Shown: one piece after another, positions 18,029 through 33,302 of the stretch
How positions within the stretch are numbered: position 1 is the stretch's first letter
Layout: every line of letters begins with the position of its first letter
Origin: an uncultured Pelagibacteraceae bacterium
GTDB taxonomy: Bacteria > Pseudomonadota > Alphaproteobacteria > Pelagibacterales > Pelagibacteraceae
Assembly (NCBI GenBank): GCA_902581695.1
Contig: CACHOW010000007.1
Location: forward strand, 1-39,522
Length of the DNA: 39,522 nt
Direction: 5' to 3'
Translations under genes and position numbers: made by a program
The notes under the pieces: model-generated
The model's input: the letters and a program-made list of their open reading frames with translations, nothing else
The model's database searches: none
Told to the model about the DNA's origin: nothing

Positions 18029-18706
18029 ATGAGTGATTTAAATAAACATTTTCAACCAAAAAACTTTAGTGACAAGGTTGCTTTATCTTTTACTAAATTT
18101 TTAAGGTTGCTAGCAGATACTTTTTTTAAAAAAAGATATGGTCATAGAGCTGTAGTACTAGAAACAGTTGCAGCTGTGCCAGGAATGGTTGCTGGAATGT
18201 TGTTACACTTAAAATCTCTTAGAAAAATAGAAGATGATAAAGGTTGGATAAAAACTCTGTTAGACGAAGCTGAAAATGAAAGAATGCATTTGATGACTTT
18301 TGTTCATATTGCAAAACCAACTGCTATTGAAAGATTTATAATCATGACTGCTCAATTTATTTTTATTTTAACTTATGCAATAATATATTTAGTCTCTCAA
18401 AGAACTGCTCATAGAATTGTTGGTTATTTTGAAGAGGAAGCTGTTATTAGTTATACAGAATACTTAAATGAGCTTGAAGCTGGAACTATTCCTGATCAAC
18501 CTGCTCCTGAAATTGCAATAAATTATTGGAACTTACCATTACATTCTACACTTAAGGATGTTGTAAGAGTAATAAGAGATGATGAAGCGGGACATAGGGA
18601 TGTAAATCATCAGTTTGCTGATCTAATTAATTTAAAGAAATCAAAAAAAAATATTGTTACTAAAGACAAAATTAAAGTAGAAAAAACTGAAGAAATTTTA
18701 AATTAA
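18029..18706 (+). CDS. aox: Alternative oxidase (ubiquinol oxidase, AOX)
   Basis: 225 residues with the diiron four-helix bundle of the AOX family. Ligand motifs are all visible: VVLETVAAVPGM (Glu about 45), NERMHLM (Glu about 84, His about 87), FEEEAVISYT (about 134-143) and RDDEAGHRDVNH (Glu about 186, His about 189). Two hydrophobic stretches (about 47-62 and 101-122) fit interfacial membrane binding. It oxidises ubiquinol with oxygen without pumping protons, giving a cyanide-insensitive bypass. Clustered with an exported MsrB downstream, perhaps a redox-stress pair. No clear ribosome site precedes the ATG. Confidence 0.92.
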   Translation: MSDLNKHFQPKNFSDKVALSFTKFLRLLADTFFKKRYGHRAVVLETVAAVPGMVAGMLLHLKSLRKIEDDKGWIKTLLDEAENERMHLMTFVHIAKPTAIERFIIMTAQFIFILTYAIIYLVSQRTAHRIVGYFEEEAVISYTEYLNELEAGTIPDQPAPEIAINYWNLPLHSTLKDVVRVIRDDEAGHRDVNHQFADLINLKKSKKNIVTKDKIKVEKTEEILN

Positions 18707-18719
18707 TCCTTAATTTGAT

Positions 18720-19181
18720 ATGATTGACAAAAGAAAATTTTTGAAATTACTAGGATTTTCTTATTTAATGTTTTTAGTATTACCTTACAGGGTTTTATCA
18801 TCGGCAACTAAAAAAGTTATTAATCCAAATCTTTCAAAAGCTCAAAAAAATATAATGTTTAATGAGGGCACAGAAAGAGCTTTTACAAGTGATTTACTTA
18901 AAGAAGATAGAGAGGGATTTTACCATTGTGCAAATTGTAATGCTAAGCTATTTGCATCTAATACAAAATTTGATAGTGGAACAGGGTGGCCTTCATTTTC
19001 AGAAGCATTACCAGGAGCGTTTAAAACAAAAATAGATTATTCTTTTGGTATGAAGCGAATTGAATATCATTGTGCAAACTGTGGTGCTCATCATGGTCAT
19101 GTTTTTTTAGATGGTCCAACTGCTACTGGAAAAAGATTTTGTAATAATGGATTGTGTTTAATTTTTATTCCAGAAAATTAG
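18720..19181 (+). CDS. msrB: Exported methionine-R-sulfoxide reductase MsrB
   Basis: 153 residues. An N-terminal Tat-like or membrane-anchor leader (DKRKFLKLLGFSYLMFLVLPY) precedes a complete MsrB domain. The zinc CxxC pairs lie at about 70/73 and 118/121. SGTGWPSF is at about 86-93, and the catalytic Cys is in KRFCNNG at about 141. It would reduce free or protein Met-R-sulfoxide outside the cytoplasm. It follows the alternative oxidase after 13 bases, and its stop overlaps the end of the convergent HisD-like gene by 4 bases. Electron supply could come from CcdA. Confidence 0.88.
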   Translation: MIDKRKFLKLLGFSYLMFLVLPYRVLSSATKKVINPNLSKAQKNIMFNEGTERAFTSDLLKEDREGFYHCANCNAKLFASNTKFDSGTGWPSFSEALPGAFKTKIDYSFGMKRIEYHCANCGAHHGHVFLDGPTATGKRFCNNGLCLIFIPEN

Positions 19182-20464
19182 TTTGAAAAACCATATTTTC
19201 TAAGTCTTGCATCACCTGTTCTTGCATGAGCTTCCATACCTTCATATCTTGAAATTCTTGCACAGGCTGCCCCAACAGATTTTGTAGAGTCTTTTGTCAT
19301 TCTTTGAAAACTTAATGTTTTAATAAATTTTCCTACAAACAATCCTCCAGTATAACGACCAGCACCTTTTGTAGGTAAGATATGATTTGTGCCAGAACAT
19401 TTATCTCCATAAGCAACAGTTGTTTCCTCACCAATAAATAGTGAACCATAATTTTTTAATCTTTTATGAAACCATTCAAGATTTTGAGTTTGAACCTCTA
19501 AATGTTCAGGTGCATACTCATCACTTATAGTTGCCATTTCCTCATCAGTATCACAAAGTATAACTTCACCATAATCTCTCCATGCTGCTTCAGCACTTGT
19601 TCTTGGGACCTCAGGTAATTCAGCAATTAATTCTGGAACTCTTTTTAATACTTCTTCAGCTAGTCTTTTACTGGTTGTGTATAACCAGGCAGGAGAGTTA
19701 TATCCGTGTTCAGCTTGACCAACCAAGTCTACCGCCACCATTTCAGCATCAGCTTTGTCATCTGCAATTACAGCAATTTCTGTTGGACCTGCAAACAAAT
19801 CAATTCCAACTTTTCCAAATAGTATTCTTTTTGCCTCTGCAACAAACTGATTTCCTGGACCAACCAATATATCTGCAGGTGGATTTTTAAATAATCCATT
19901 TGTCATTGCAGCAATACCAGGAACCCCACCTAAATTTAGTATTACATCAGCACCACACAAATCTGCTGTATAAACAATTGCTGGATGAGCTCCTATTCCT
20001 TCTTTAGGTGGACTACAGGCAATAATATTTTTTACTCCAGCAACTTTTGCTGTTGTAACACTCATAACAGCAGAGGCTATATGTGCGTAACGTCCACCAG
20101 GTATATAGCAGCCAGCAGTGTTGACTGGTATTAATTTTTGACCAGCAAATAATCCTGGAGAAAGTTCTACTTCAAAATCTTGACCATAGTTTTTTAATTG
20201 GGCTTCAGCAAACTTTCTTACTCTTTCATGAGAAAATTGAATGTCATCTTTTGTTTTTTGATCTAATTCTTTTTTGATCTTTTCAATTCTTTCTTTGGAA
20301 ACAATAATTTCACCATCATATTTATCGAATTTTTTAGTTAAATTGATGCATGCTTCTTCTTTTGAATTTTCAATTTCTTTTAATAAATTTTTAACTATCT
20401 CAGTAGTTTTAGTATCATCTGTAGAAGATGTTTTAGGGGATTTTTTTAAATAAGTAATTGCCAT
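19178..20464 (-). CDS. HisD-family dehydrogenase, likely sulfopropanediol dehydrogenase (HpsN-like)
   Basis: 428 residues, histidinol-dehydrogenase fold, NAD- and zinc-dependent. Metal and catalytic residues are conserved: Gln about 250 and His about 253 (GQAEHG), Glu-His about 320-321 (APEHLEV), Asp about 354 (GDKCSGTNH) and His about 413. HpsN oxidises 2,3-dihydroxypropane-1-sulfonate to sulfolactate and belongs to this family. Position at the end of a tauABC operon, next to an Ldh2-type dehydrogenase and Pta, away from any his gene, favours HpsN over HisD. That choice is inference. A second substrate such as another hydroxysulfonate is possible. Gap to pta is 61 bases. Confidence 0.7.
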   Translation of the reverse strand: MAITYLKKSPKTSSTDDTKTTEIVKNLLKEIENSKEEACINLTKKFDKYDGEIIVSKERIEKIKKELDQKTKDDIQFSHERVRKFAEAQLKNYGQDFEVELSPGLFAGQKLIPVNTAGCYIPGGRYAHIASAVMSVTTAKVAGVKNIIACSPPKEGIGAHPAIVYTADLCGADVILNLGGVPGIAAMTNGLFKNPPADILVGPGNQFVAEAKRILFGKVGIDLFAGPTEIAVIADDKADAEMVAVDLVGQAEHGYNSPAWLYTTSKRLAEEVLKRVPELIAELPEVPRTSAEAAWRDYGEVILCDTDEEMATISDEYAPEHLEVQTQNLEWFHKRLKNYGSLFIGEETTVAYGDKCSGTNHILPTKGAGRYTGGLFVGKFIKTLSFQRMTKDSTKSVGAACARISRYEGMEAHARTGDARLRKYGFSN

Positions 20465-20525
20465 AGTTTTTATTTGAATTAATGGGAATATTTAATGCAA
20501 ATTAGTTTTTTTTTCAATGAAACTA

Positions 20526-21437
20526 TTAATCTAAAGCTACCACTGCAGCAGCAATCGAGGCTAATCTGGCAGGTGCTTCGTCTGATCGACTTGTAATTAC
20601 CACTGGTACTTTACCACCAATTACAACTCCTGCAGCACAGGCTCCACAGAAATATATTAACATTTTAACCAAAGCGTTTCCTGTTTCTACACTTGGAACC
20701 AATAAAACATCAGCTTCACCAGCTACAATATTTTTTATTCCTTTAATTGATGCTGATTTTTTTGAAACACTATTATCAAAAGCAAGGGGACCAAAAACAT
20801 CTGCATTTAAATTGTCTTCTTTAGCTAGTTTGGTTATTTCAGCCGCTTCTTTAGAACTTGGAACACTATCTAGCACTTCTTCAGTAGCAGAAAGAATAGC
20901 AACTTTTGGTTTATCAATTCCAATTCTATTTGAAAAATTTACTACATTTTTTAAAATATGCATTTTTGTTTTTATATTTGGCAATACATTTAATGCTCCA
21001 TCCGTAATTATTAATGGTTTGCTTTCTTTATGAATAGTCATGTGCCAGATATGACTTAGTCTAGTTTTACCTAATAAATCATATTCTCTTTTTAAAACTT
21101 CTTTCATTAAAATATCAGTGTGAATATGTCCTTTGACAATAATTCTAATTTTTTTTTCACTTGCTAATTTTGCAGCTATTGGTGCAGTATTATTTTCAAC
21201 AGGTTCGTTTATGATTTCATAATTAGAAATATCCCATTTTAAATCTTCGGCACATTTCAAAATTTCTTTTTCATCACCGATAAAAATTGGCTCTATTAAA
21301 TTCTCATTTACAGCATCTTGTATAGAAAGCATAGGCAGTGGTTTACCTGCGTTAACTATTGCTGCTTTAACTCCCTTTTTTTTATGGGCAACATCTAAAA
21401 GATTATTTGGACAGACTATTTCCTTATTTGATAGCAT
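20526..21437 (-). CDS. pta: Short phosphate acetyltransferase (Pta/Ptb family)
   Basis: 303 residues, the single-domain phosphate acetyl/butyryltransferase form without the long N-terminal P-loop domain. VKGHIHTDILMKEVL, RLSHIWHM, ITDGALNVLPN, GPLAFDNSVS and CGACAAGVVIGGKVPVVITSRSDEA span the family's substrate and CoA sites. This short Pta typically converts acetyl phosphate from sulfoacetaldehyde acetyltransferase (Xsc) into acetyl-CoA in sulfonate users. Xsc itself is not in this window. The gene begins 4 bases after the dehydrogenase upstream in the operon. Confidence 0.85.
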   Translation of the reverse strand: MLSNKEIVCPNNLLDVAHKKKGVKAAIVNAGKPLPMLSIQDAVNENLIEPIFIGDEKEILKCAEDLKWDISNYEIINEPVENNTAPIAAKLASEKKIRIIVKGHIHTDILMKEVLKREYDLLGKTRLSHIWHMTIHKESKPLIITDGALNVLPNIKTKMHILKNVVNFSNRIGIDKPKVAILSATEEVLDSVPSSKEAAEITKLAKEDNLNADVFGPLAFDNSVSKKSASIKGIKNIVAGEADVLLVPSVETGNALVKMLIYFCGACAAGVVIGGKVPVVITSRSDEAPARLASIAAAVVALD

Positions 21438-21441
21438 AAAT

Positions 21442-22446
21442 TTAATTTTTAAGTATTTTTAAATCTTTTTTAATTGTTTCAGAAATTTTAATATCCTTTT
21501 TTGAATTCATTTTGAACCTTTTAAATTTATTTTCACCAGGATACATAATATTTTTTACACCTTTAATTTTAGGTAATTTCTTTATTGTTTTAATATTATT
21601 TTTAATTCTACTATTATAATCCTTCACAAATAAATTTGTTTTAAATGTGATAAATAAATGGCCAATATTTTGTGGACCTGAAAAATCATCAAATGGATCT
21701 TTAACTCTGCCAGCATGATTACTACCAGTTAATACACCACTTAAAATATCAACCATCCAAGCTAATCCTGATCCTCTGAAACCAGCAATAGGTAATTGAA
21801 CTCCTTTTAGAGCTTTTTTTGCATCTGTTGTGGGTTTACCAAATTTATCTAAAGCAACACCTTTTGGAATTTTTTGATTATTTCGTGCAGCCACTCTAAT
21901 TTTTCCTCTATTAATCATTGAAATAGAGGTATCAAAAATGAATGGAATTTTTGAACCTGAAGGAGTCCCAAAACAAATTGGGTTAGTTCCAAATAAACTT
22001 TTTAACGCTCCGTGTGGAGCAACTGCCGGTGGAGCACTTGTATAAATCATAGTAACCAGATTTTTTTTTACTGCTTGTTCTGCGTAATATCCTGAAAGAC
22101 CATAATGACCGCTATTTTTTACCGCAACCATTCCTATACCTGTTTTTGTTGCATTTTGAATTGCTTTTTTTATGGCAATATCTGCGGCTACGAAACCTAT
22201 ACTATTATTTGCATCTACAAGTGAGATAGACTGTGAAATCTTTTTAATCTTAATTTTAGGTTTTGGGTTAATAACTTTTTTGGAAATTCTTTCACAATAC
22301 ATTTTTAATCGTGAAAGACCGTGCCCATAAGCACCAACTAACTCTGCATTAATTAAAGCATTAGCCGAAATCAAAGCATGATTATTGTTTAAGCCAAATT
22401 TTTTAAAGATTATAACAACTTCTTTTTTTAAAATATCTGTTTTCAA
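21442..22446 (-). CDS. Ldh2-type (malate/L-lactate/sulfolactate) dehydrogenase
   Basis: 334 residues of the Ldh2/MDG superfamily. VKNSGHYGLSGYYAEQAV contains the catalytic His at about 114. GTNPICFGTPSG binds NAD, and GFRGSGLAWMVDILSGVLTG forms the conserved C-terminal helix. These enzymes interconvert 2-hydroxy and 2-oxo acids. ComC-type members act on (R)-sulfolactate. In this operon, beside an HpsN-like gene, oxidation of sulfolactate to sulfopyruvate is the likeliest role; malate or ureidoglycolate cannot be excluded. Its ATG is one base from the tauC stop. Confidence 0.82.
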   Translation of the reverse strand: MKTDILKKEVVIIFKKFGLNNNHALISANALINAELVGAYGHGLSRLKMYCERISKKVINPKPKIKIKKISQSISLVDANNSIGFVAADIAIKKAIQNATKTGIGMVAVKNSGHYGLSGYYAEQAVKKNLVTMIYTSAPPAVAPHGALKSLFGTNPICFGTPSGSKIPFIFDTSISMINRGKIRVAARNNQKIPKGVALDKFGKPTTDAKKALKGVQLPIAGFRGSGLAWMVDILSGVLTGSNHAGRVKDPFDDFSGPQNIGHLFITFKTNLFVKDYNSRIKNNIKTIKKLPKIKGVKNIMYPGENKFKRFKMNSKKDIKISETIKKDLKILKN

Positions 22447-22447
22447 A

Positions 22448-24373
22448 CTATCCTTTTCCGCGCCATGGGATTGTTTTATCTATAATTTTTCTCAAAGTGA
22501 TATCAAATAACAATCCAAGCATACCCATAATAAATATTGTTATCCAAATTACTTCATATTGAAAATATTTTTTTGCAACATTTTCCACAAATCCTATGCC
22601 TGTTGTACCCGCTAAAAATTCTGCTGCAACTAATGTTCCCCAACACATACCTACTGCTACTCTTATACCAGTAAGAATTTCTGGTAATGAATTAGGAAAT
22701 ATTACGTGTCTTAGTATTTGTCGTTTAGATGCCCCCAATGAATGAGCAGCATGAATTTTAGAAAGCTGAGTCCCTGATGCACCAGCTCTAGCTGAAATAA
22801 TCATAATTGATAAAGAAACCATAAATAAAAGAAATACTTTTCCAGTGTTATCTATACCCAATACAGAAATAATTAGTGGTGCCCAAGCTAAAGGAGGAAC
22901 AGGTCTATAAAGTTCAATCAAAGGATCAAAAAAACCTTTGGCAAATCTATTTAGTCCCATGAATAAACCTAATGGTACACCAATGATTATTCCAAATACT
23001 AATCCTAAAAAAACTCTTAAAAATGAATCCCAAATGTGTCCGTAAGGTACTGGCACCTTAAATAATTTGAAATCACCTGTTACAACTTTTAAGACATTAC
23101 CTTTAAAATTTTCTTTTACAATTCCATCTTTAGTGTGAACTGGATATTCACCAGGTAAAATATCTGCTATCCAATCAGGTAAAATAAATCCAATCATTTT
23201 ACTGACATCAACCATATCTATCCAAAGAAGTGGTATATCTTTGTAACCAACGCTTGGTTTTGACATTAATATAAATTTGTTAAAAGTGTCAGATGGTTTT
23301 GGAAGCCATCTGCCAGAACCTTGTTCAGAACAACTTGGACCACTAGCAACTATTGTTCCAGCTGGGAATAACAAAATATCTATAAATCTTAGACCACCTT
23401 GTGTCTTTAGTTGCGCATTATCAAATTTAATTATAGCATTTTGCATTTTGTCTAATGCATTAGGTGGATATATACTTGCGAATTCTATTCTTCTTGCGAT
23501 CTTTACAATATTTTTTGCATAGGTAGATGCTACTTCCTCACTATCACTTAGATTTTTTCTATAAGATTTAATATCCTCTTTAAGTTGTTTAATTTGATTT
23601 TTAAATTGAGGATTATGATTTCTTAATTTAAAAAATTCATCACTAATTGAGTTTAATTCTTGTGCAGCAGCATGAAATTTTAAACCTCTATCAGTTGCTG
23701 GAATTAAAGGTACTTCCATTGTATTTTCTATAGACCCAGTTCCTGATTTTACTTTTACAATTCCCCATCCACCTTCTTCACTTACAGCTTTAAGTCTTTC
23801 ATTAAGCTCCTGTTCAGTTTCAAATGGATAATCTGGTTTTTGAAAATTTTCAGTTAAAAGGTTAATTTTACCTGTTATATCATTAATCTTTTGTTTGGTT
23901 TCATTTTCAATCAAATCTTCATTTGTTAATAATGGAATTAATTGATTTGTTTTCTTTATAAATCCTGCAAGAACTGTTTTTTGTTGATTATCTATTTCTT
24001 GAGAATTTTGTATTTCGTTTAAAATAAGATTAAGGTTTTTATTTTCTTTCTTGATTTGAGATGTACTTTTGAATTCTCTTTCTTCAATAGGAAATTGATA
24101 TTTTAAACCTAGCAATGAATCATTTACTTTTGCTACTTGGCAAAGTTCGTTAGCAGATTTTGGATAAAATCCTTTTGCAATATCCCATGAATAATAAAGC
24201 CAAACTAAAAGAAGAAAGCTGCTTCCTACGATAACCCAATGAGTACCACCTAACGCTCTTTCAGGATTACCAAATACCGCATCAACTTTTTCAGTTTTAA
24301 TTAATTTTCTTCCATAAAGAATGCAGCCGATAACCGCTACAAAAATTAAAAAAGTTACTATTTGAGTAAGCAT
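22448..24373 (-). CDS. tauC: TauC-like ABC permease with very large N-terminal extension
   Basis: 641 residues against about 250-280 for ordinary TauC. Two hydrophobic helices lie at about 4-24 and 46-68. A soluble region of some 350 residues with coiled-coil-like helices (about 105-185 and 230-300) and a Pro/Gly-rich link follow. From about 445 comes the standard binding-protein-dependent permease domain, with the EAA loop AAHSLGASKRQILRHVIFP that docks on TauB. The core imports taurine or related sulfonates. The extra region would face the periplasm if both helices span the membrane, and might contact TauA. It directly abuts tauB. Confidence 0.85.
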   Translation of the reverse strand: MLTQIVTFLIFVAVIGCILYGRKLIKTEKVDAVFGNPERALGGTHWVIVGSSFLLLVWLYYSWDIAKGFYPKSANELCQVAKVNDSLLGLKYQFPIEEREFKSTSQIKKENKNLNLILNEIQNSQEIDNQQKTVLAGFIKKTNQLIPLLTNEDLIENETKQKINDITGKINLLTENFQKPDYPFETEQELNERLKAVSEEGGWGIVKVKSGTGSIENTMEVPLIPATDRGLKFHAAAQELNSISDEFFKLRNHNPQFKNQIKQLKEDIKSYRKNLSDSEEVASTYAKNIVKIARRIEFASIYPPNALDKMQNAIIKFDNAQLKTQGGLRFIDILLFPAGTIVASGPSCSEQGSGRWLPKPSDTFNKFILMSKPSVGYKDIPLLWIDMVDVSKMIGFILPDWIADILPGEYPVHTKDGIVKENFKGNVLKVVTGDFKLFKVPVPYGHIWDSFLRVFLGLVFGIIIGVPLGLFMGLNRFAKGFFDPLIELYRPVPPLAWAPLIISVLGIDNTGKVFLLFMVSLSIMIISARAGASGTQLSKIHAAHSLGASKRQILRHVIFPNSLPEILTGIRVAVGMCWGTLVAAEFLAGTTGIGFVENVAKKYFQYEVIWITIFIMGMLGLLFDITLRKIIDKTIPWRGKG

Positions 24374-25171
24374 CTAAATATCTTTCCCCATAATTTCTTC
24401 TTCCATATTCCAAATCATTTCTAATATTTCCTCACGCTTTGCAGAAAAATCTTTATTTTTTTTAATTTCTCTTAAATCTTCTTTTAATCCCATCAAAGCA
24501 AAAGGTAGATTGTATTCTTTATGTATACGACCTGGTCTAGGAGCCATAACGTAAAGTCTTTCACCAAGTAATAAAGCTTCTTCAACTGAGTGAGTAATTA
24601 AGATAATTGTTTTGCCAGTTTCTTTCCAAATTTTTAAAACTAAAGACTGCATTTTCTCTCTCGTTAGCGCATCAAGTGCACCTAATGGTTCATCCATTAA
24701 AATTAAATCTGGATCGTTAATAAGACATCTTGCTAGAGCAACTCTTTGCTGCATTCCTCCTGATAACTGATAGGTCGGAGTATTACCAAATCCTTGTAAA
24801 CCGACAATTTCTAACCACTCATCTACTTTCTTTGCAGTTTGTATTGGATCTTCTTTCTTCATTCTTAATCCAAAATTTACATTCTCTGCAACTGTTAACC
24901 ATTCAAACAACGCTCCTTGTTGAAAAACCATTCCTCTTTCAACACCAGGGCCATCAATTTCTTTATTATTTAAAGTGATAACACCTGAAGTTGGTCTGAT
25001 AAATCCTGCAGTGATATTAAGTAGTGTTGTTTTCCCACAACCAGATGGGCCTAGAACTGTAAGAAGTTCTCCTTTTTTAAGTGTAAAGTTTAAATCTTTT
25101 AAAGCATGAACCGTTTCTCCTTTTGGAGTCTTAAAAATCATATTAAGATTTTGAGAAATTAGATCACTCAT
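24374..25171 (-). CDS. tauB: Taurine ABC transporter ATP-binding protein
   Basis: 265 residues of the nitrate/sulfonate/taurine ABC ATPase subfamily. Walker A GPSGCGKTT at about 41-49, Q-loop in MVFQQGALFEWLT, signature LSGGMQQRVALAR, Walker B LILMDEPLGALD and the H-loop ILITHSVEEA are all present. The W-L-T after the Q-loop is typical of TauB/SsuB. It powers the TauC permease in the cytoplasm. A terminator-like hairpin separates it from tauA, so lower expression than the binding protein is expected. Confidence 0.9.
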   Translation of the reverse strand: MSDLISQNLNMIFKTPKGETVHALKDLNFTLKKGELLTVLGPSGCGKTTLLNITAGFIRPTSGVITLNNKEIDGPGVERGMVFQQGALFEWLTVAENVNFGLRMKKEDPIQTAKKVDEWLEIVGLQGFGNTPTYQLSGGMQQRVALARCLINDPDLILMDEPLGALDALTREKMQSLVLKIWKETGKTIILITHSVEEALLLGERLYVMAPRPGRIHKEYNLPFALMGLKEDLREIKKNKDFSAKREEILEMIWNMEEEIMGKDI

Positions 25172-25196
25172 AAAACGACTTTATATTAAAATTTTT

Positions 25197-25239
25197 AATA
25201 AAAAAATAGGCACCAATTTAATAAAATTGGCGCCTATTT
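25197..25239 (-). terminator. Attenuating terminator between tauA and tauB
   Basis: On the minus strand, a 16-bp hairpin (arms 25224-25239 and 25204-25219, one G-U pair) with a 4-base loop, followed by a run of T. It begins 20 bases after the tauA stop and precedes tauB. This matches the common arrangement in which the abundant binding-protein transcript ends or is protected here, while read-through serves tauBC and the catabolic genes. Confidence 0.85.
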
Positions 25240-25259
25240 AAATTTTAAATACCTTTAGA

Positions 25260-26201
25260 TTACAAAGGTAAGAAACTAGTGTCTACATTTCCTCTTGGAG
25301 TTCCCATACCTTTTAGGAACGCATCAAGATTTCCTTTAGTCATAGATTGCTTAGTTTCTTCTGGAGTTAAGAATTTAAATCCACTTAAAGTTTCTTTCAT
25401 GTCAGCAACTTTCATTTCTGAAGCCTTAGCCATAACACTCATATTGCTTTTACCAGCTTTGTATCTAGCATTTGCTTCGTGAGTTACTTCTATAAAAGTT
25501 CTTAGCATACCTGGATTTTCTTTCATAAACTTTGTAGTTACTGAAGTAATATCTATTCCAAGAATACCTGCTTTTCTTGCTTCATCAACTGTAAGTAATC
25601 TTGAACCAACTGCAGTTGCAGCTTTAATAGAGTTACCACCAAATAAACATGCCATTACAACATCACCACTTACTAATGCAGCAGCTCCTTCTTCAGGATC
25701 CATTTGAATAATATCCATTTTGCCTCTATCAGCCCCAACAACTTTCATACTTTCATCAAAAACGTATTCAGCCATTGTTCCTAATGGAACAGCAACTTTC
25801 TTACCTTCTAATTCAGTAGCATTTGCTTTAGTAATTCCAGAAGCATTAGAAGTAACACAAGTTGTTCCTCCCATTCCGTATTCCATAGCAATATCAACTA
25901 GTTTAATTGGTGCTTTAGATTTAACAGCGTTAATGAAAGGTACTAAACCTTGAGAATAAGAAATATCTATATCCCCTGCAAGCATAGCATCAGTCATCGC
26001 TCCACCATTTGTAAAGTTCGTCCATTTAACTGGAACACCAAGCGCTTTAGCGAATGCTTTTTTTTGCATATCCTCTAAATTTGGACTTGGCCACTCTAGA
26101 AAGTAAGCAACTCTAACTTCATTCGCTGCAGAATTAGCGGCTGAAATACTCAAGTTAAGAGCAACAAAACATCCTAAAAGAAAACTAATTATTTTTTTCA
26201 T
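25260..26201 (-). CDS. tauA: Taurine-type ABC substrate-binding protein
   Basis: 313 residues. Signal peptide at about 1-22 (KKIISFLLGCFVALNLSISAANSA), then a type II periplasmic binding fold of the NMT1/TauA/SsuA family. Seen: VRVAYFLEWPSPN, TNFTNGGAMTDAMLAGDID, VPLGTMAEYVF, MACLFGGNSIK and a helical C-terminal part. It captures taurine or a related sulfonate in the periplasm for TauBC. A strong AGGGGA ribosome site precedes the ATG, and a TATAAT-like -10 lies about 70 bases upstream. First gene of the leftward operon. Confidence 0.88.
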   Translation of the reverse strand: MKKIISFLLGCFVALNLSISAANSAANEVRVAYFLEWPSPNLEDMQKKAFAKALGVPVKWTNFTNGGAMTDAMLAGDIDISYSQGLVPFINAVKSKAPIKLVDIAMEYGMGGTTCVTSNASGITKANATELEGKKVAVPLGTMAEYVFDESMKVVGADRGKMDIIQMDPEEGAAALVSGDVVMACLFGGNSIKAATAVGSRLLTVDEARKAGILGIDITSVTTKFMKENPGMLRTFIEVTHEANARYKAGKSNMSVMAKASEMKVADMKETLSGFKFLTPEETKQSMTKGNLDAFLKGMGTPRGNVDTSFLPL

Positions 26202-26414
26202 TTATTCCCCTATCATTAATTATTTAATTGTAGATATTTAAATTCAATTTTGGATAGAAGTAAAACAAATTATATTGGGAGACAGTATTGCAAACATTTC
26301 AATTGTACAATTTAAAGTTGTATAGTAGTATTTGTCCAATTTGAGTTTAGAGAAATTCCTAGTAAACAACCAAATTTAGTCTATGAATTAAAAAACTTAA
26401 ATTTAATAAAAATT
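26202..26414. promoter_or_regulatory. Divergent tauA/tpa control region
   Basis: 213 bases without a gene between the two arms of the sulfonate locus. It holds a TATAAT-like -10 for tauA (minus strand, 26269-26274). It also holds the perfect palindrome AATTGTACAATT at 26301-26312. An overlapping inverted repeat is TACAA at 26306-26310 with TTGTA at 26318-26322. The palindrome sits about 30 bases upstream of the tauA -10, where an operator for a dimeric regulator could act on both directions. No convincing -35 or tpa promoter could be fixed by eye. Confidence 0.5.
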
Positions 26415-27761
26415 ATGAGCTCTGAAAATAGAACAAATATTCCTAATTCCTTAAATGAACATTGGATGCCTTTTACATCAAATAAAGATTTTAAAAAAAG
26501 TCCAAGATTAATTACTGAAGCAAAAGGTGTTTATTTAAAAACTCATCATGGAAAAACACAAATCGATGCAAGCTCGGGACTGTTTTGCAATCCTCTTGGA
26601 CATGGTAGAAAAGAAATAACTGAGGCAGTTACAAAGCAGTTAGAAACTTTAGATTATGCCCAGCCTTTTCAACAAGGTTTTGGTGGTTCGTTTGAATTAG
26701 CAACAAAAATTTCCAAACATACACCAGGAGATTTAAATAAAATTTTCTATACTATTTGTGGGTCAACTGCAGTTGAAACAGCCCTTAAAATCGCAATAGC
26801 TTATCATAGATCAAAAGGTAAGGCAGAAAGATTTAGATTTGTCGGAAGAGAACGTGGATATCATGGAATGAATATAGGATGCATTTCAGTTGGTGGAATG
26901 ATTAACAACGTAAAGACTTTTGCAAGTGTTTTGATGCCAGGAGTTCAGCATATGAGACATACTCATTTAGATGAACATAAGTTTGTAAGCGGTCAACCTG
27001 AGACAGGAGCAGATAGAGCTGATGATTTAGAAAGAATAGCAATGAATTTTGGTCCAGAAAATATAGCGGCATGTATTGTTGAACCAATTGCTGGATCAAC
27101 TGGAACTTTAGTTCCACCCAAAGGTTATTTACAAAAATTAAGAAATATTTGTGATAAACACGGCATACTTTTAATTTTTGATGAAGTGATTACTGGATGG
27201 GGAAGAACAGGTTCTTCTTTTGCAAGTATAGAATATGGAGTAACACCAGACATAATGACAATGGCTAAGGCTACAACTAATGGAGTTGTACCAATGGGTG
27301 TTGTTGCCTGTAAAGATGAAATTTATGATTCAGTAATGGATGCATCACCAATGGGCTCAGTAGAATTATTCCATGGATATACTTATTCAGGTATTCCAGT
27401 TGCTGTTGCGGCTGCATTAGCAGTACAGGATATTTTTGAAAAAGATGATATTTTTAATAGAGCAAAAAATTTAGCTCCATATTTCCAAAAGGGTTTATTT
27501 TCTCTGCAAGATTTAGAGTCTGTAGAAAATATTAGAGGCTATGGAATGATGGGTGGTATAGATATGAAGTTAAATACTAAACCTGGTAAGGCTGGTTATG
27601 AATGTTTTAAAGCTTGTTATGAAGCGGGGGTCAACTTTAAAGCAACAGGTGATTGTTTAATTATTGCTCCACAGTTTATTTGTGAAGAAAAACATATTGA
27701 TGAGATTATTGATAAACTTAGAACAGGTATCACTAATTATCAAAAGAACCAAAAAAACTAG
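26415..27761 (+). CDS. tpa: Taurine:pyruvate aminotransferase (class III)
   Basis: 448 residues, PLP-dependent class III omega-aminotransferase. HWMPFTSNKDFK opens the protein as in omega-amino-acid:pyruvate transaminases. Then come the cofactor segment CGSTAVETALKIA, the Asp of LLIFDEVITGWGRTG and the PLP Lys in MAKATTNG at about 285. Tpa converts taurine and pyruvate to sulfoacetaldehyde and alanine. Linkage to tauABC and an alanine dehydrogenase gene supports this over beta-alanine:pyruvate aminotransferase, which cannot be ruled out from sequence. First gene of the rightward arm. Confidence 0.82.
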   Translation: MSSENRTNIPNSLNEHWMPFTSNKDFKKSPRLITEAKGVYLKTHHGKTQIDASSGLFCNPLGHGRKEITEAVTKQLETLDYAQPFQQGFGGSFELATKISKHTPGDLNKIFYTICGSTAVETALKIAIAYHRSKGKAERFRFVGRERGYHGMNIGCISVGGMINNVKTFASVLMPGVQHMRHTHLDEHKFVSGQPETGADRADDLERIAMNFGPENIAACIVEPIAGSTGTLVPPKGYLQKLRNICDKHGILLIFDEVITGWGRTGSSFASIEYGVTPDIMTMAKATTNGVVPMGVVACKDEIYDSVMDASPMGSVELFHGYTYSGIPVAVAAALAVQDIFEKDDIFNRAKNLAPYFQKGLFSLQDLESVENIRGYGMMGGIDMKLNTKPGKAGYECFKACYEAGVNFKATGDCLIIAPQFICEEKHIDEIIDKLRTGITNYQKNQKN

Positions 27762-27799
27762 TTAGTTAATTTTTTATCTATAGTAAACAGAGAGAGATA

Positions 27800-28918
27800 A
27801 TGAGGATAGGCGTACCTAAAGAAATAAAACCACAAGAAAATAGAATTGGGTTAACACCCGAAAGTGTAAAAACTTTAGTATCTGAAGGTCACGAAGTTTT
27901 AATTGAAAATAATGGTGGCTTTGAAGCTGGTTTTGAAAATGATCAATATATAAAAGCTGGTGCTAAAATAGCCAGTAGTGCAGCTGATATTTTTAACGAT
28001 GCTGAAATAATTGTTAAAGTAAAAGAACCTCAAAAAGTTGAAGTAGATATGATTAGAGAAAATCAAATTGTTTATACTTATCTTCATTTAGCTGCTGCAA
28101 AAGAACTTACAGAGGGATTAATTAAATCTAAAAGTATTAATATTGCTTATGAAACTGTTACTGATGATAATGGTAGACTTCCTTTACTAGCACCTATGAG
28201 TGCTGTTGCAGGACGAATGTCTGTTCAAGCAGGGGCACATTGTTTAGAAAAAAATCAAAAAGGCAGAGGTCTTTTATTAGGAGGTGCGCCAGGGGTAACT
28301 GCTGGAACAGTTGTTATTTTAGGTGGTGGAGTAGTTGGAGAAAACGCTGCAGTTATAGCAACAGGGATGCAAGCTAAAGTTCATATAGTTGATAAATCAG
28401 AAGCAAGGCTCAATCAACTAGTTGAAATGTTTGGTGATAAAATTATTCCTGAACAAAGTGATAAAATAGATTTAAATAATTTGATTGCAGAAGCAGATCT
28501 AGTAGTTGGGGGTGTACTCATACCTGGAGCCGAGGCACCAAAGTTAGTTACAAAAGATATGTTAAAATTAATGAAAAGAGGTTCTGTAATAGTTGATGTT
28601 GCAATAGACCAAGGAGGGTGTGTAGAAACTAGCAAACCAACAACTCATGGAGATCCCACTTACATTATAGATGATGTTGTTCATTATTGTGTAGCAAATA
28701 TGCCTGGTGGAGTTCCTAGAACTTCAACATTAGCTTTAAATAAAGCAACACTTCCTTTCTTAGTAAAATTAGCAAACAAAGGTTACCAAAAAGCTTTAGG
28801 AGAAGATAAAAACTTTTTAGCAGGATTAAATGTTCATAAAGGCCATGTGACTTATAAAGCAGTTGCAGATGTATTTGGACACGAATATCTTGATCCTGGA
28901 GAAGCTATCAAAAATTAA
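27800..28918 (+). CDS. ald: Alanine dehydrogenase
   Basis: 372 residues, full-length NAD-dependent L-alanine dehydrogenase. Catalytic Lys about 75 and His about 96 are in place (VKEPQ and YLHLAAA). VILGGGVVGENAAVIATGMQA in the middle is the NAD-binding Rossmann motif, and MPGGVPRTSTLALNKATLPF is the family C-terminal signature. It oxidises alanine to pyruvate and ammonium, regenerating the pyruvate consumed by Tpa, so the pair nets oxidative deamination of taurine. It starts 38 bases after tpa with a GAGAGAGATA ribosome site. Confidence 0.93.
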   Translation: MRIGVPKEIKPQENRIGLTPESVKTLVSEGHEVLIENNGGFEAGFENDQYIKAGAKIASSAADIFNDAEIIVKVKEPQKVEVDMIRENQIVYTYLHLAAAKELTEGLIKSKSINIAYETVTDDNGRLPLLAPMSAVAGRMSVQAGAHCLEKNQKGRGLLLGGAPGVTAGTVVILGGGVVGENAAVIATGMQAKVHIVDKSEARLNQLVEMFGDKIIPEQSDKIDLNNLIAEADLVVGGVLIPGAEAPKLVTKDMLKLMKRGSVIVDVAIDQGGCVETSKPTTHGDPTYIIDDVVHYCVANMPGGVPRTSTLALNKATLPFLVKLANKGYQKALGEDKNFLAGLNVHKGHVTYKAVADVFGHEYLDPGEAIKN

Positions 28919-28922
28919 TTAA

Positions 28923-31367
28923 ATGGAAAAAAAACTACCAAATAGCACTAAGGTTGTTGTTATTGGAGGTGGTGTAGTAGGTTGTTCTGTTGCTTATCAT
29001 TTAGCAAAATTTGGTTGGAAAGATACAATTCTTTTAGAAAGAGATCAGTTAACATCAGGAACAACTTGGCACGCAGCAGGATTGGTTAGTCAGTTAGGTC
29101 CCTCAGCTGCAATAACCAAGATTAGAAAATATACTTTGGATTTATATAAGAAACTTGAAAAAGAAGTTGATCATTCAGCAGGTTTAAGATTAAACGGCGC
29201 CCTTTCAATTGCTCAAAACAAAGGAAGATGGCAAGAACTTCAAAGACAAGCAACTACGGCACAACTTTATGATGTTGATGTAAGAATTTTAGATAAAAAT
29301 CAAATTAAAAAAGATTATCCAATTATTAATACTGATGAAGTTATTGGTGGCATTTTAATGCCTGGAGATGGTGCTGCTGATCCATCAGGTGTTACTCATA
29401 TGTTGGCTAAAGCTGCAAGAAAAGAGGGAGCACAAATTTTTGAAAAATCTCCAGTAGATGAAATTTTAACTGAGAATGGAAAGATCTCAGGAGTAAAAGT
29501 TAATGGCCAAGAAATTGAATGTGAATATATTGTCTTAGCATCTGGAATGTGGTCAAGACAAATTGGAGAAAAAGCTGGAGTAAGTATCCCACTTTATCCG
29601 GCGGAGCACTTTTATATTATTACTGAACCAATAGAAAATTTGTCTAAAACTTTACCAGTAATTAGAGACTTTGATAATCGAACTTATATCAAAGAGGATG
29701 CAGGTAAAATATTAGTTGGAATTTTTGAAGGAAATTCTATTCCAGCTTGGGATAAGACAAACAAAGTTCCAGAAGATTTTTCTTTTGGTGAGTTTCAAGA
29801 GAATTTTGAACATTTTGAACCTTACTTAGCCTCTGCTATTAAAAGATTTCCAGTTTTAGAGTCTGCTGGTATTAGAAAATTCTTTTCAGGACCAGAATCT
29901 TTTACACCTGATACAAATACATTATTAGGAGAAGTGCCGGAAGTGAAAAACTTTTTTGTATGCTGTGGGTTAAATAGTATTGGTATAGGGAGTGGAGGAG
30001 GCGTTGGTAAAGTTACCGCAGAATGGTTAATGACTGGCCATATCAATGAAGATATTTTTAGTTACGATATAAAAAGATTTCAAAAATTTCATTCAGAATT
30101 GGGTTTTATTAAAAAAAGGATTACAGAGACCTTAGGGGATTTATATGGAATGCATTGGCCATTCAAGCAACATAAAACCTCTAGAAATATTAAAACTTTA
30201 CCTCATCATGATAATCTAAAAAGCTTTGGTGCATGTTTCGGTGTTTCAGGTGGCTATGAAAGACCTATGTGGTTTGCTTTGGATGGGGAAAAAGCTGAGT
30301 ATGAATATAGTTATAATTATCAAAGCTGGTATCCATCAGCTGAATATGAAACAAATAATACAGTTAAAAATGTTGGTTTATTTGACTTAACTCCTTTTTC
30401 TAAGTTTGAAATAAAATCAGATAAAGCACATCAAGAACTGCAGAAAATTTGTACTGCAAATATCAAAAATGAGCCTGGTAAATGTGTTTATACACATATG
30501 TTAAATTCTGATGGTGGAATAGAGACAGATTTAACAGTTGTATGTGTTGATAACAATCATTTTAGAATAATCAGTTCTGCAGCAACAAGAGAGAGAGATA
30601 AATTTCATATTAACAAACATCTTTCTAAAAATATTGAATTAAAAGATATTACAGATGATTTATGTGTATTCGGTTTGTTTGGTCCAAAAAGTAGAGATTT
30701 ACTTAAAACTTTAAGCGAAGATAATTTTGAAAATGATCAATTTAGATTTGGATTTGCAAAGTTTATTACAATTGATGGGGTTAAAATCTGGACTCAAAGA
30801 TTATCTTATGTAGGTGAATTGGGCTACGAGCTATATGTAGATCTTAGAGATGCAAAAAAAATATACGAATTACTTATAGAAAAAGGTAAAGATTTTAATC
30901 TTTCTAATTGTGGGATGCATGCAATGGATATTATGCGAATGGAAAGTGGATTTTTACATTGGGGACATGATATTTCCCCTGAAGAAAACCAGCATCAAGC
31001 AGGTTTAACTTTTACTATTAGCAATAAAAAAGATGTAGATTTTATTGGAAAGCAAGCATTAGAAAAAATTAAACAAGACAAAGTTAAAACTAGATTTTCA
31101 ATGTTTACTTTGAAAGAAAGTGAACCAGGAAAACCATTATTACTTCATGATGAACCTATCTATATTGATGATAAAATTATAGGAAGATCTACATCAGGAA
31201 ATTATTCATTTAATTTCAAAAAAAATTTAGTATTTGGTTATATTAAAAATGACCTATCTAATGAAGAACTACAATCTAAAGATTTATTTATTGAAGTAGA
31301 AAAACAAAAATATCCTATCTCTATTCAATCTGAGCCTCTAAAACGAACAGATTTTAAAAATCTTTAA
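28923..31367 (+). CDS. Dimethylglycine/sarcosine dehydrogenase-like flavoprotein with GcvT domain
   Basis: 814 residues: an N-terminal DAO-type FAD domain (VVVIGGGVVGCSVAYHLAKFG at about 11-31), an FAO_M-like middle and C-terminal GcvT/aminomethyltransferase folate domains from about 420. The His of GTTWHAAGL at about 50 matches the residue that binds FAD covalently in dimethylglycine and sarcosine dehydrogenases. It would oxidatively demethylate an N-methyl amine and pass the formyl unit to tetrahydrofolate. It begins 4 bases after ald in the taurine locus, so N-methyltaurine is a conceivable substrate; dimethylglycine or sarcosine is the standard guess. Confidence 0.85.
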   Translation: MEKKLPNSTKVVVIGGGVVGCSVAYHLAKFGWKDTILLERDQLTSGTTWHAAGLVSQLGPSAAITKIRKYTLDLYKKLEKEVDHSAGLRLNGALSIAQNKGRWQELQRQATTAQLYDVDVRILDKNQIKKDYPIINTDEVIGGILMPGDGAADPSGVTHMLAKAARKEGAQIFEKSPVDEILTENGKISGVKVNGQEIECEYIVLASGMWSRQIGEKAGVSIPLYPAEHFYIITEPIENLSKTLPVIRDFDNRTYIKEDAGKILVGIFEGNSIPAWDKTNKVPEDFSFGEFQENFEHFEPYLASAIKRFPVLESAGIRKFFSGPESFTPDTNTLLGEVPEVKNFFVCCGLNSIGIGSGGGVGKVTAEWLMTGHINEDIFSYDIKRFQKFHSELGFIKKRITETLGDLYGMHWPFKQHKTSRNIKTLPHHDNLKSFGACFGVSGGYERPMWFALDGEKAEYEYSYNYQSWYPSAEYETNNTVKNVGLFDLTPFSKFEIKSDKAHQELQKICTANIKNEPGKCVYTHMLNSDGGIETDLTVVCVDNNHFRIISSAATRERDKFHINKHLSKNIELKDITDDLCVFGLFGPKSRDLLKTLSEDNFENDQFRFGFAKFITIDGVKIWTQRLSYVGELGYELYVDLRDAKKIYELLIEKGKDFNLSNCGMHAMDIMRMESGFLHWGHDISPEENQHQAGLTFTISNKKDVDFIGKQALEKIKQDKVKTRFSMFTLKESEPGKPLLLHDEPIYIDDKIIGRSTSGNYSFNFKKNLVFGYIKNDLSNEELQSKDLFIEVEKQKYPISIQSEPLKRTDFKNL

Positions 31368-32219
31368 TTAAGTTTGTCTTCTTAAAATAAAAACAAAAAT
31401 TACTGAAGTTGCCATCATGATTAATGCATAAGCGGCAGTCGGGACCATATATATCATATCATTACCAAATAATTGTATTCCCACAAAAACTGCCAAAGTT
31501 CCATTTTGGAGACCAGCCTCTAGAGATATGCATCTTCTTTGAGCAACCCCAGTTGCAAAAAATTTAGCAATATAAAAAGCTACAATCATCATTGTAACAT
31601 TTAAAGTAAAAGCAATCATTCCAGCTTTTTCTAAAAACATAACTATGCTATCCCATTCCTCGATATAGATAGCAATAAAAACAATGCTGAACAAACCAAT
31701 GGATATTTTATTGATAGTTTTCATATTGTTTACAATAAAATTATCTGCAAGTTTTCTAATGATCATTCCAATCAATACCGGAACAGTTACAACAAAAAAC
31801 ATTTTTAAAGATATACTGAGCATAGAAACTTCTTTTTTGACATATGTAATATCAAATAATTCTATTGATAAAAAAACTACATAAGGAACAGACACTATAC
31901 TAATTAAACTCGTAATTGCTGTTAAAGATATTGAAAGGGCCACATCTCCATCTGCAAATTTAGTTAGCACATTAGAAGTTACACCACCAGGTGCTGCAGC
32001 TATTAACATTACACCTAATGCTAACTCAATTGGAGTTTTTAAAATAATTATTAAGAAATATGCAATAATAGGAAGCAATACCAACTGACAAATTAATCCA
32101 ATAAAAAATTCTTTAGGGTTTTGAACTACTCTAGTAAAATCTTGAACTGTTAAAGATGCACCTAGTCCCAGCATTATTAATGCTAAAGCTATTGGTGCTA
32201 TTGTTGTTACTATTTCCAT
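31368..32219 (-). CDS. BASS-family sodium:organic anion symporter
   Basis: A 283-residue inner-membrane protein with about nine hydrophobic helices, of the bile acid:Na+ symporter (SBF) family. LGLGASLTVQDFTRVVQNPK near the N-terminus and IAAAPGGVTSNVLTKFADGD at about 73-92 are the Na+-site and crossover signatures; SLEAGLQNGTLAVFVG near 232-247 is the second crossover. Bacterial members carry steroids, pantothenate or keto acids, and the real substrate here is unknown. It abuts the dehydrogenase stop convergently and lies 63 bases downstream of the regulator, probably its target. Confidence 0.85.
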   Translation of the reverse strand: MEIVTTIAPIALALIMLGLGASLTVQDFTRVVQNPKEFFIGLICQLVLLPIIAYFLIIILKTPIELALGVMLIAAAPGGVTSNVLTKFADGDVALSISLTAITSLISIVSVPYVVFLSIELFDITYVKKEVSMLSISLKMFFVVTVPVLIGMIIRKLADNFIVNNMKTINKISIGLFSIVFIAIYIEEWDSIVMFLEKAGMIAFTLNVTMMIVAFYIAKFFATGVAQRRCISLEAGLQNGTLAVFVGIQLFGNDMIYMVPTAAYALIMMATSVIFVFILRRQT

Positions 32220-32282
32220 TTCCCTCTTAATGAAATTAATACTAAATTAATAATATATTAAAAATTTTTTAAAAAAAGGTTT

Positions 32283-33302
32283 TTATGAAATAGTCAAAAG
32301 ATTAAGAACTTTTCTAATGAATTTAGCTTTATTTTTGAAAATTAATTTCTGATATGGAAGAACTCTTTGAACATTGAAACCTGTTAAAATATATTGTTTT
32401 TTCTCGTTTAATCTTAAGTATTCATTTTTTAACAAGAACTTACATTTTCTAATTACTGTTGCTCGAGGGATTCCAGTCATATCAGAAACAGACATTGCAC
32501 TAACACCGTTACTTCTAGCTTTATCACCTCTTATTATCTCTTCATTAAATTTATTATAATCTCCTTTAAATAGTTCTTTTTGAAAATCCATATACTTATG
32601 AGTTTGATTGGAGCCGTTCCTTTTATCTAAAATGGTACTATAATTAAAAGCTTGGTTCATACAAACTGTTCCCCAAACGTGAAATGTTGTTAAGTCCTCA
32701 AACATTTCATGGTATCCAATAACCATTGGAATTTGCATCCTATAAAACCATCTCCAACAAATAGAGAAATTTTTCTTTAACACATTTTCAATCATTTTTG
32801 CTTCAAGTTTTTTGGAGTAAAGTCTTTCCTTTAAAAGTATTTCTGAAATTTTCAAAATATAGCCAGCTGTATATTTCATTTGGTTTTCAGGTTTAATAAA
32901 ACTAAACGATCTTCGGTCAATGATGATTTGTTTTTTTTGTCTTTTTAGAACTCCCAATTTCTCTAGTTCTAGAACTTTTCGTCTAACAGTTTCTTTTGGC
33001 AAATGAAGTTTTTCACATAACTCTGTGATACTGAATCTATCTATTTGAAGAAAATTTTTTGAATAGTACTGATCATAGTTCAATTTAATATTCATTTGAT
33101 CGTAAAACTGTAAAGTTTTTTCAACTAGTGAAATGATAATCATGTATTTATAGTGATCTTTGAAAGCTCGATATACGGCATTCATCCATCTCCATTGATG
33201 ATTGATCCAATCTTTTCCTAATTGATCATAGTTAGCCATCATATGATCATAAACTTGCTCATCGTTAAGAACTTTTGAAAAATCTATTTGTTGTAGACTC
33301 AT
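32283..33302 (-). CDS. Putative transcription regulator with two winged-helix motifs
   Basis: 339 residues with two separate helix-turn-helix-wing patterns: FSITELCEKLHLPKETVRRK ... LKRQKKQIIIDR at about 90-130, and MSVSDMTGIPRATVIRKCKF ... RLNEKKQYILTG at about 270-308. Between them is a helical region rich in aromatic and basic residues (WRWFYRMQ). No known ligand domain is recognised. The two motifs look like GntR/MarR-type folds within one chain. A perfect palindrome at 33333-33342 lies upstream and could be its own operator. The BASS symporter gene follows downstream. Confidence 0.7.
   Translation of the reverse strand: MSLQQIDFSKVLNDEQVYDHMMANYDQLGKDWINHQWRWMNAVYRAFKDHYKYMIIISLVEKTLQFYDQMNIKLNYDQYYSKNFLQIDRFSITELCEKLHLPKETVRRKVLELEKLGVLKRQKKQIIIDRRSFSFIKPENQMKYTAGYILKISEILLKERLYSKKLEAKMIENVLKKNFSICWRWFYRMQIPMVIGYHEMFEDLTTFHVWGTVCMNQAFNYSTILDKRNGSNQTHKYMDFQKELFKGDYNKFNEEIIRGDKARSNGVSAMSVSDMTGIPRATVIRKCKFLLKNEYLRLNEKKQYILTGFNVQRVLPYQKLIFKNKAKFIRKVLNLLTIS

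Follow-up and report, generated by a model that had tools for sequence, protein, structure and literature searches.

SAR11 bacteria occur in very large numbers in the ocean. The major sulfonates of phytoplankton include taurine, dihydroxypropanesulfonate (DHPS) and cysteinolic acid. Degradation of taurine in alphaproteobacteria is known from clusters of the form tauABC-(tpa or tauXY)-xsc-pta, and degradation of DHPS from hpsN-suyAB of Cupriavidus pinatubonensis and from TRAP-hpsN-hpsO-hpsP of Paracoccus, Rhodovulum and Leisingera. As for SAR11 itself, in the available parts of the respective sources growth of P. ubique on taurine is cited (PMC7891661), use of DHPS is reported (PMC11131964), and aprAB, suyAB and xsc are described as core or near-core genes of Pelagibacteraceae (PMC12636525). 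The pathway discussed here is of this known and already published kind, and is here split in two. The DNA analysed, hereafter the window, is a contig of 39,522 nucleotides (CACHOW010000007.1; C7) of an uncultured SAR11 genome (GCA_902581695.1; G000) with 813,824 bases in 40 contigs and a completeness of 68%. Its locus of nine genes, from an hpsN-like gene to a dimethylglycine dehydrogenase (DMGDH)-like gene, is most probably one half of the SAR11 set for sulfonate catabolism, the other half of which, with Xsc and SuyAB-like proteins, lies on another contig; together they would convert taurine to acetyl-CoA and DHPS to pyruvate, both with release of sulfite. No account of such a linkage of split clusters was found in the literature, which was searched largely by title and with subscription papers mostly outside the scope.

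Xsc and SuyAB-like genes on another contig

The sequence-only reading of the window described a sulfonate locus without Xsc, the connecting enzymes being either located elsewhere or replaced by an unrecognised route, in which for instance isethionate would be formed by reduction and exported. The absence of Xsc holds for the window but not for the genome. A profile search of the genome contigs placed Xsc on contig C4 (G000:C4:4818-6545) with 965 bits, the cut-off of TIGR03457 being 676.4, while a second match to this model on C1 (283.5 bits) is below the cut-off and is probably another thiamine pyrophosphate enzyme. Divergently from xsc on C4 are arranged SuyA- and SuyB-like genes, then exporters of the YeiH and TauE families, a gene for a protein of 116 amino acids and, where the contig begins, the C-terminal end of aprA. 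Only this end of aprA is present, and aprB is not on the assembled stretch of C4. The first of the two earlier options, location elsewhere, is what was found, and a search of the genome for xsc, suyAB and a TauE-like exporter, as had been proposed, finds genes of all three kinds on C4. The protein of 116 amino acids, which stands without a family between the aprA end and tauE (L004 484-834, + strand), has counterparts of 60-91% identity both elsewhere in the genus and in sister genera.

SuyB of C4 is 65% and 68% identical, and SuyA 50% and 46%, to the respective products of suyAB near hpsN in C. pinatubonensis and Paracoccus seriniphilus. No SuyAB-specific NCBIfam model matched these genes; to judge from the identities, they likely encode an (R)-sulfolactate sulfo-lyase. 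A GMC oxidoreductase and a TRAP transporter are further encoded on C4, a pair that would be more in keeping with a cell taking up and oxidising some hydroxy compound than with one exporting isethionate. This GMC protein is 47% identical to an xsc- and TRAP-linked GMC of P. seriniphilus, but plasmid GMCs of up to 53% exist, so that a role as isethionate dehydrogenase is only a guess.

In the proposed pathway, TauABC would import taurine, and the omega-aminotransferase would transaminate it with pyruvate to sulfoacetaldehyde and alanine; from the latter, alanine dehydrogenase (Ald) would return pyruvate and ammonium. Sulfoacetaldehyde would be cleaved by Xsc of C4 into acetyl phosphate and sulfite, and Pta of the window would form acetyl-CoA. 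On the C3 side, HpsN would likely oxidise R-DHPS to R-sulfolactate, which SuyAB of C4 would split into pyruvate and sulfite. The sulfite would likely be oxidised by AprBA or exported by TauE or YeiH.

Co-occurrence and linkage of the two halves

Distribution of the two halves was compared in 148 Pelagibacteraceae genomes, 147 drawn at a completeness of at least 85 together with G000. xsc was found in 108 of them, in 107 above the cut-off, hpsN of the window type in 101 and suyB in 107. In tests that ignore the relatedness of the genomes, xsc and hpsN are strongly associated (96 genomes with both, 12 with xsc only, 5 with hpsN only, 35 with neither; p=1.8e-18), as are suyB and xsc (104 with both, 3 with suyB only, 4 with xsc only, 37 with neither; p=8.5e-27) and suyB and hpsN (95 with both, 12 with suyB only, 6 with hpsN only, 35 with neither; p=1.1e-17). 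The association of xsc and hpsN is significant outside the genus of the window (61 genomes; 22 with both, 4 and 1 with a single one, 34 with neither; p=1.4e-11), and in the 22 genomes with both, the two genes are 6.6-12.2 kb apart in 19 and on different contigs in 3. Regions of sister genera show the aprA end, tauE, suyBA, xsc, gmc, TRAP and hpsN in a row, with some genes between. In two genomes (G025 and G045) the row continues with pta-ldh2-tauCBA-aminotransferase-ald-dmgdh on one contig, over a total of about 35 and 30 kb, respectively. In another (G011), suyBA-xsc-gmc-TRAP-hpsN-pta-tauC is found inside 19 kb, and a named contig (L055) carries xsc-gmc-TRAP-hpsN-pta-ldh2-tauCBA. This co-occurrence, together with the close linkage in sister genera, points to the window locus as half of a split sulfonate cluster. 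The earlier proposal that one gene set may serve C2 and C3 sulfonates is supported. Seeing the two halves as one removes an apparent missing step and tells which genes should be read together in metagenomes.

The HpsN-like dehydrogenase

The HisD-fold protein of the window matches the solved HpsN of C. pinatubonensis (8v35) with 524 bits, as against 247 bits for the best true HisD. According to the available part of PMC11382572, a G-R-Y-A/S-H motif with a sulfonate-binding histidine separates HpsN from HisD. The motif is present in 80 of 80 SAR11 copies, where its histidine is His128 of the window protein, and in none of 30 HisD-type paralogues, which are the top-scoring Histidinol_dh rows from Pelagibacteraceae outside the window's genus and are 33-38% identical to the window HpsN. 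Ten of the 11 compared active-site positions of C. pinatubonensis HpsN are identical (Asp46, His126, Gln248, His251, Glu318, His319, Asp352, Lys353, His359 and His411), whereas Ser226 is replaced by Thr. By scores, motif and active-site residues the protein is HpsN-like, in agreement with the sequence-only reading. It matches named Pelagibacterales contigs with up to 100% identity. In a tree of 24 HpsN and HisD proteins, SAR11 HpsN grouped neither with the DHPS-linked nor with the tauABC/cuyA-linked plasmid group. In one sister genus, hpsN adjoins a gene for a medium-chain dehydrogenase, 40% identical to HpsP of C. pinatubonensis, near an allantoinase gene (L150 7490-8494; L135 13870-14877).

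Probable genes for taurine

With binding proteins of P. seriniphilus and Ruegeria conchae, TauA of the window shares 37-40% identity, as against 24-25% with three classical TauA proteins. TauB is 48-51% identical to three classical TauB proteins, as against 67-68% to two other marine TauB-like proteins. Sequence comparison places the window TauABC in a subfamily other than the classical one. TauA of this type (E value of 1e-32 or better) occurs in 24 of 386 genomes of the class, 21 of which are outside SAR11, and neighbourhoods were compared for 20 of these 21 (G216 is not among them). xsc is nearby in 7 of the 20 loci and tauR in 5. An aminotransferase of the window type (49-53%) is found in 6, in 4 of them with ald, and 5 others have a distant transaminase (27-29%) instead. 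One locus has the order xsc-pta-aminotransferase (49%)-tauR-tauABC (L220), and in another a Ptb-type Pta (38%), tauR and the aminotransferase (51%) adjoin tauCBA (L205). These neighbourhoods support taurine as the substrate and the AptA-type enzyme as a working taurine:pyruvate aminotransferase (Tpa). The aminotransferase passes the AptA omega-aminotransferase model (Table 1), and no Tpa model is among the matches listed, which cover 25 of 69 NCBIfam families. It is of the AptA type and linked to taurine only by its context, a correction to the earlier label tpa. No MocR-type tauR was seen among the 20 window open reading frames (ORFs) scanned with Pfam.

The TauC-type permease has a soluble insert near residues 66-379, about 315 extra residues with no Pfam match, which is predicted to be mostly helical; its structure model is weak (mean predicted local distance difference test score, pLDDT, of 57.7). 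Full-length relatives (638-644 amino acids, 42-44% identity) are present in 7 of the 20 loci of the class outside SAR11, and the long permease is common among at least 120 homologues listed from the 7,999 best candidates scored.

Arrangement of the locus

All nine genes of the sequence-only reading (Table 1) proved to be open frames with the domains it had ascribed to them, as seen in the ORF list and in profile scans with Pfam and NCBIfam. hpsN, pta, ldh2, tauC, tauB and tauA are oriented in one direction, and the aminotransferase, ald and the DMGDH-like gene in the opposite one, from the divergent intergenic region. The gene order recurs in most of the sufficiently long loci among 80 SAR11 loci fetched with HpsN, with insertions and losses. 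Since much of it recurs in SAR11 contigs from other cells, the arrangement is not a matter of chance. A few loci differ in having hpsN beside a GMC and TRAP gene (L041, L055).

Table 1. Features of the sulfonate locus in the window
Feature	Position	Strand	Basis
HpsN-like sulfopropanediol (DHPS) 3-dehydrogenase, HisD fold	19178-20464	-	524 bits to 8v35, 247 to best true HisD; GRYAH motif
Pta/Ptb-type short phosphate acetyl/butyryltransferase; likely forms acetyl-CoA from acetyl phosphate	20526-21437	-	PF01515; NF006045 292 bits, cut-off 282
Ldh_2-family dehydrogenase	21442-22446	-	PF02615; NF040650 238 bits, cut-off 500
Long TauC-type ATP-binding cassette (ABC) permease, 641 amino acids	22448-24373	-	BPD_transp_1 at 465-628; hydropathy, ORF lengths
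TauB-type ABC ATPase	24374-25171	-	TauB model 270.6 bits, cut-off 357
TauA-type substrate-binding protein, likely for taurine	25260-26201	-	TauA model 89.6 bits, cut-off 304; subfamily context
Divergent intergenic region between tauA and aminotransferase gene, 213 bp	26202-26414		Coordinates
Omega-amino acid:pyruvate aminotransferase, likely taurine:pyruvate (Tpa-like)	26415-27761	+	AptA model 577.7 bits, cut-off 500
Alanine dehydrogenase (Ald); likely alanine to pyruvate and ammonium	27800-28918	+	TIGR00518 480.6 bits, cut-off 391.9
DMGDH-like flavin adenine dinucleotide (FAD)/folate N-demethylase, 814 amino acids	28923-31367	+	DAO, FAO_M, GCV_T, GCV_T_C; match to human DMGDH

Genes for an alternative oxidase and an MsrB-type protein (window 18029-19181, + strand) converge on hpsN, the ends of msrB and hpsN overlapping by 4 bp, and one or both of them adjoin hpsN again in many SAR11 loci. 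On the other side, genes for a BASS-family transporter and a helix-turn-helix protein (window 31368-33302, - strand) are convergent to the DMGDH-like gene. Their homologues flank the DMGDH-like gene in another genome (G003), and in other loci their relatives stand between ldh2 and pta.

Ldh2 and the slot between tauC and pta

The best solved relative of Ldh2 is an L-sulfolactate dehydrogenase (190 bits), and the sequence-only reading took Ldh2 for a sulfolactate dehydrogenase of the ComC type. This assignment is rejected: the protein falls short of the L-sulfolactate dehydrogenase model (Table 1), and it is only 31% identical to Ldh of the P. seriniphilus suyAB locus, as against 42.5% to an Ldh from a locus for tricarboxylate transport. 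The slot between tauC and pta (window 21438-22447) is variable. Of 69 loci with at most 9 kb between the two genes, 64 have Ldh2 in the slot; it is empty in two (L028, L061), contains a gene for 380 amino acids without NCBIfam match in one (L135), and in two loci of one sister genome (L150 and L158, G002) contains a CuyA-like gene, the score of which (444 bits) is just below the cut-off of 450. By eye, added genes in the slot resemble those for a TRAP transporter, sugar-nucleotide enzymes, glycosyltransferases or hydrolases.

Possible use of modified aminosulfonates

The DMGDH-like protein has the full DAO, FAO_M, GCV_T and GCV_T_C order and matches human DMGDH from end to end (449 bits). It keeps the catalytic Asp of the folate domain, which is Ala in entry 3gsi. 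A second copy on C15 of the same genome is 32% identical. The gene directly follows ald in 24 of 28 SAR11 loci that extend at least 300 bp beyond ald. When 88 copies of the window type in the family were placed (a partial copy in G115, 366 residues at a contig edge, was left out), hpsN, where on the same contig, was no more than 30 kb away in 30 of 33 cases for copies of at least 77% identity (39 copies), 9 of 9 for those of 70-72% (14), 8 of 9 for those of 63-67% (30, of which 16 on other contigs) and 4 of 4 for those of 52-53% (5). Agrobacterium vitis has a pair of DMGDH genes in front of an aminotransferase gene of the window type (48%), and in Sinorhizobium fredii NGR234 the DMGDH-like and aminotransferase matches are adjacent; a DMGDH piece in L220, an open stretch of 95 residues near the contig end, counts as weak support. 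The enzyme is perhaps an N-methyltaurine demethylase. Since relatives in rhizobia and Paracoccus are near betaine, carnitine or ectoine genes, and a tree groups the SAR11 protein with them, N-methyltaurine as substrate is a proposal from context. A literature search by title yielded no work on bacterial degradation of N-methyltaurine.

Eight plasmid loci with an HpsN-like gene fall into two kinds. Five are of the DHPS type, with genes of the short-chain dehydrogenase or alcohol dehydrogenase type behind hpsN and suyAB or TRAP nearby. The other three, in P. alcaliphilus, P. seriniphilus (p449297) and Ancylobacter pratisalsi, have genes for D-cysteine desulfhydrase, an aminotransferase, an amino acid racemase and a taurine-type ABC transporter beside HpsN, and the products annotated as D-cysteine desulfhydrase are 47-49% identical to the CuyA-like SAR11 protein. 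On p449297, over about 47 kb, TauABC of the SAR11 type adjoins two DMGDH-like genes with genes for electron transfer flavoprotein (ETF) and folate enzymes. This stretch also has two xsc, one adjoining GMC and a TRAP transporter, and a second TauABC of the SAR11 type, followed by a cuyA-like gene, aminotransferase, racemase and hpsN. The set of cuyA-like gene, aminotransferase, racemase and an HpsN-like gene that carries the annotation hisD recurs on plasmids together with a taurine-type ABC transporter (L199, L202 and L204 41372-45649). The 47-kb island itself (L204, P. seriniphilus NZ_CP067131.1 40000-86000, and L198) contains two xsc, GMC-TRAP, pta-YeiH, cuyA-like and HpsN genes, and three DMGDH-like genes with ETF, FolD and PurU.

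The plasmid set looks like an operon for cysteinolate and cysteate. It would be apt for breaking down cysteinolic acid via cysteate, and this acid is widespread as a solute of algae according to the available part of PMC8703288. Like HisD with histidinol, HpsN would oxidise the amino analogue of DHPS, cysteinolic acid, and so yield cysteate, which would be desulfonated by a CuyA-like enzyme or degraded via transaminase, Ldh2 and SuyAB. In SAR11, the CuyA-like gene of G002 and the published kinetics of SAR11 HpsN (see below) speak for it. No CuyA-like gene was found in the 68%-complete genome G000 by a search without a positive control there, and the literature searched by title held no work on bacterial degradation of cysteinolic acid. 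Tentatively, the locus may be built for modified phytoplankton aminosulfonates, either by demethylation of N-methyl- or N,N-dimethyltaurine, feeding the transaminase and Xsc, or by HpsN acting on cysteinolic acid, or by both; that at least one of these is right is possible, if somewhat doubtful. The substrates of two SAR11 enzymes are of interest, that of the DMGDH-like protein and that of HpsN, which may really be cysteinolic acid.

Contrary evidence and alternative explanations

Several observations weigh against the assignment of the locus to taurine and DHPS catabolism together with C4. Within the window's genus (87 genomes) the association of xsc and hpsN is not significant (74, 8, 4 and 1 genomes; p=0.43), both genes being very common, and where both occur they are on different contigs in 52 of 74 genomes, the other 22 having distances of 24 kb to 1.1 Mb. 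TauA, TauB (Table 1) and TauC (179.2 bits, cut-off 342) are all under the NCBIfam taurine cut-offs. A SAR11 HpsN, possibly orthologous to the window protein, has a Km of 106 mM for R-DHPS and 16 mM for L-histidinol, with an efficiency ratio of 2.2, in the available part of PMC11131964; its activity on both is weak, and these kinetics are poor for DHPS. No HpsP-like gene was found in the 68%-complete genome, in a search without a positive control there. The TRAP binding protein of C4 shares only 21% identity with its counterpart encoded ahead of hpsN in P. seriniphilus, and it has no match at 1e-5 to Rhodovulum HpsK, so that no gene can be named as the DHPS importer.

The family of the aminotransferase is not specific to taurine. 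The solved relatives that match it best are beta-alanine or omega-amino acid transaminases, a 51% relative is found among genes for pyrimidine and beta-alanine degradation in Thalassospira, and of 122 family genomes with this gene, 26 have no detected xsc. These facts, together with the pass of the AptA model and the carnitine, glycine-betaine or ectoine genes near relatives of the DMGDH group, would suit a module for nitrogenous osmolytes or beta-alanine. In such a module, whose resemblance to a sulfonate locus would be accidental, beta-alanine would be the substrate of the aminotransferase, dimethylglycine or sarcosine that of the DMGDH-like enzyme, and the ABC transporter would carry another zwitterion. 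However, the divergent pair of tauABC and the aminotransferase gene stands beside hpsN in SAR11 and in one stretch with xsc-suyAB in sister genera, and the TauA subfamily is accompanied by xsc or tauR in other bacteria as counted above, which makes this module unlikely.

A role of the HisD homologue as the usual histidinol dehydrogenase of the cell is very improbable. The protein does pass TIGR00069 for hisD (427 bits, cut-off 243.8) and is the sole Histidinol_dh found in G000. On the other hand, it has the HpsN motif and residues, G000 is only 68% complete, and at least two Histidinol_dh matches are present in 74 of 87 genomes of the genus, so that HpsN is not a stand-in for HisD; together with the higher score to HpsN, these points led to rejection of the gene as an ordinary hisD. 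An Xsc-free route for sulfoacetaldehyde, e.g. its reduction to isethionate and export, to which the lack of xsc among the scanned window genes and in the 26 genomes above might point, is hardly credible given the frequency of xsc in the family, and as a need of this genome it is ruled out by Xsc of C4.

Comparison with known systems

The preferred assignment, a sulfonate set in two halves, can be set beside four known systems. From dimethylglycine dehydrogenase, the window protein keeps the domain order and the folate Asp, and differs in its place behind a transaminase gene and ald. The published organosulfur set of SAR11 has the same enzymes in the same family, and the linkage of tau genes with hpsN and the split are not described in the part of that paper available (PMC12636525). 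The window and C4 are like the DHPS clusters of C. pinatubonensis and of Paracoccus, Rhodovulum and Leisingera in HpsN (56-63% identity) and SuyB (65-68%), and sister genera resemble those with TRAP in having TRAP genes just before hpsN; unlike them, SAR11 has hpsN of the window with tauABC and pta, and suyAB with xsc, and neither HpsO nor HpsP is encoded beside the window hpsN. With the alphaproteobacterial taurine cluster SAR11 shares TauABC, a class III transaminase, Ald, Pta and, on C4, Xsc, whereas its transaminase is of the AptA type, its Pta of the Ptb type, its TauABC distinct with a permease of 641 amino acids, and its xsc located on another contig.

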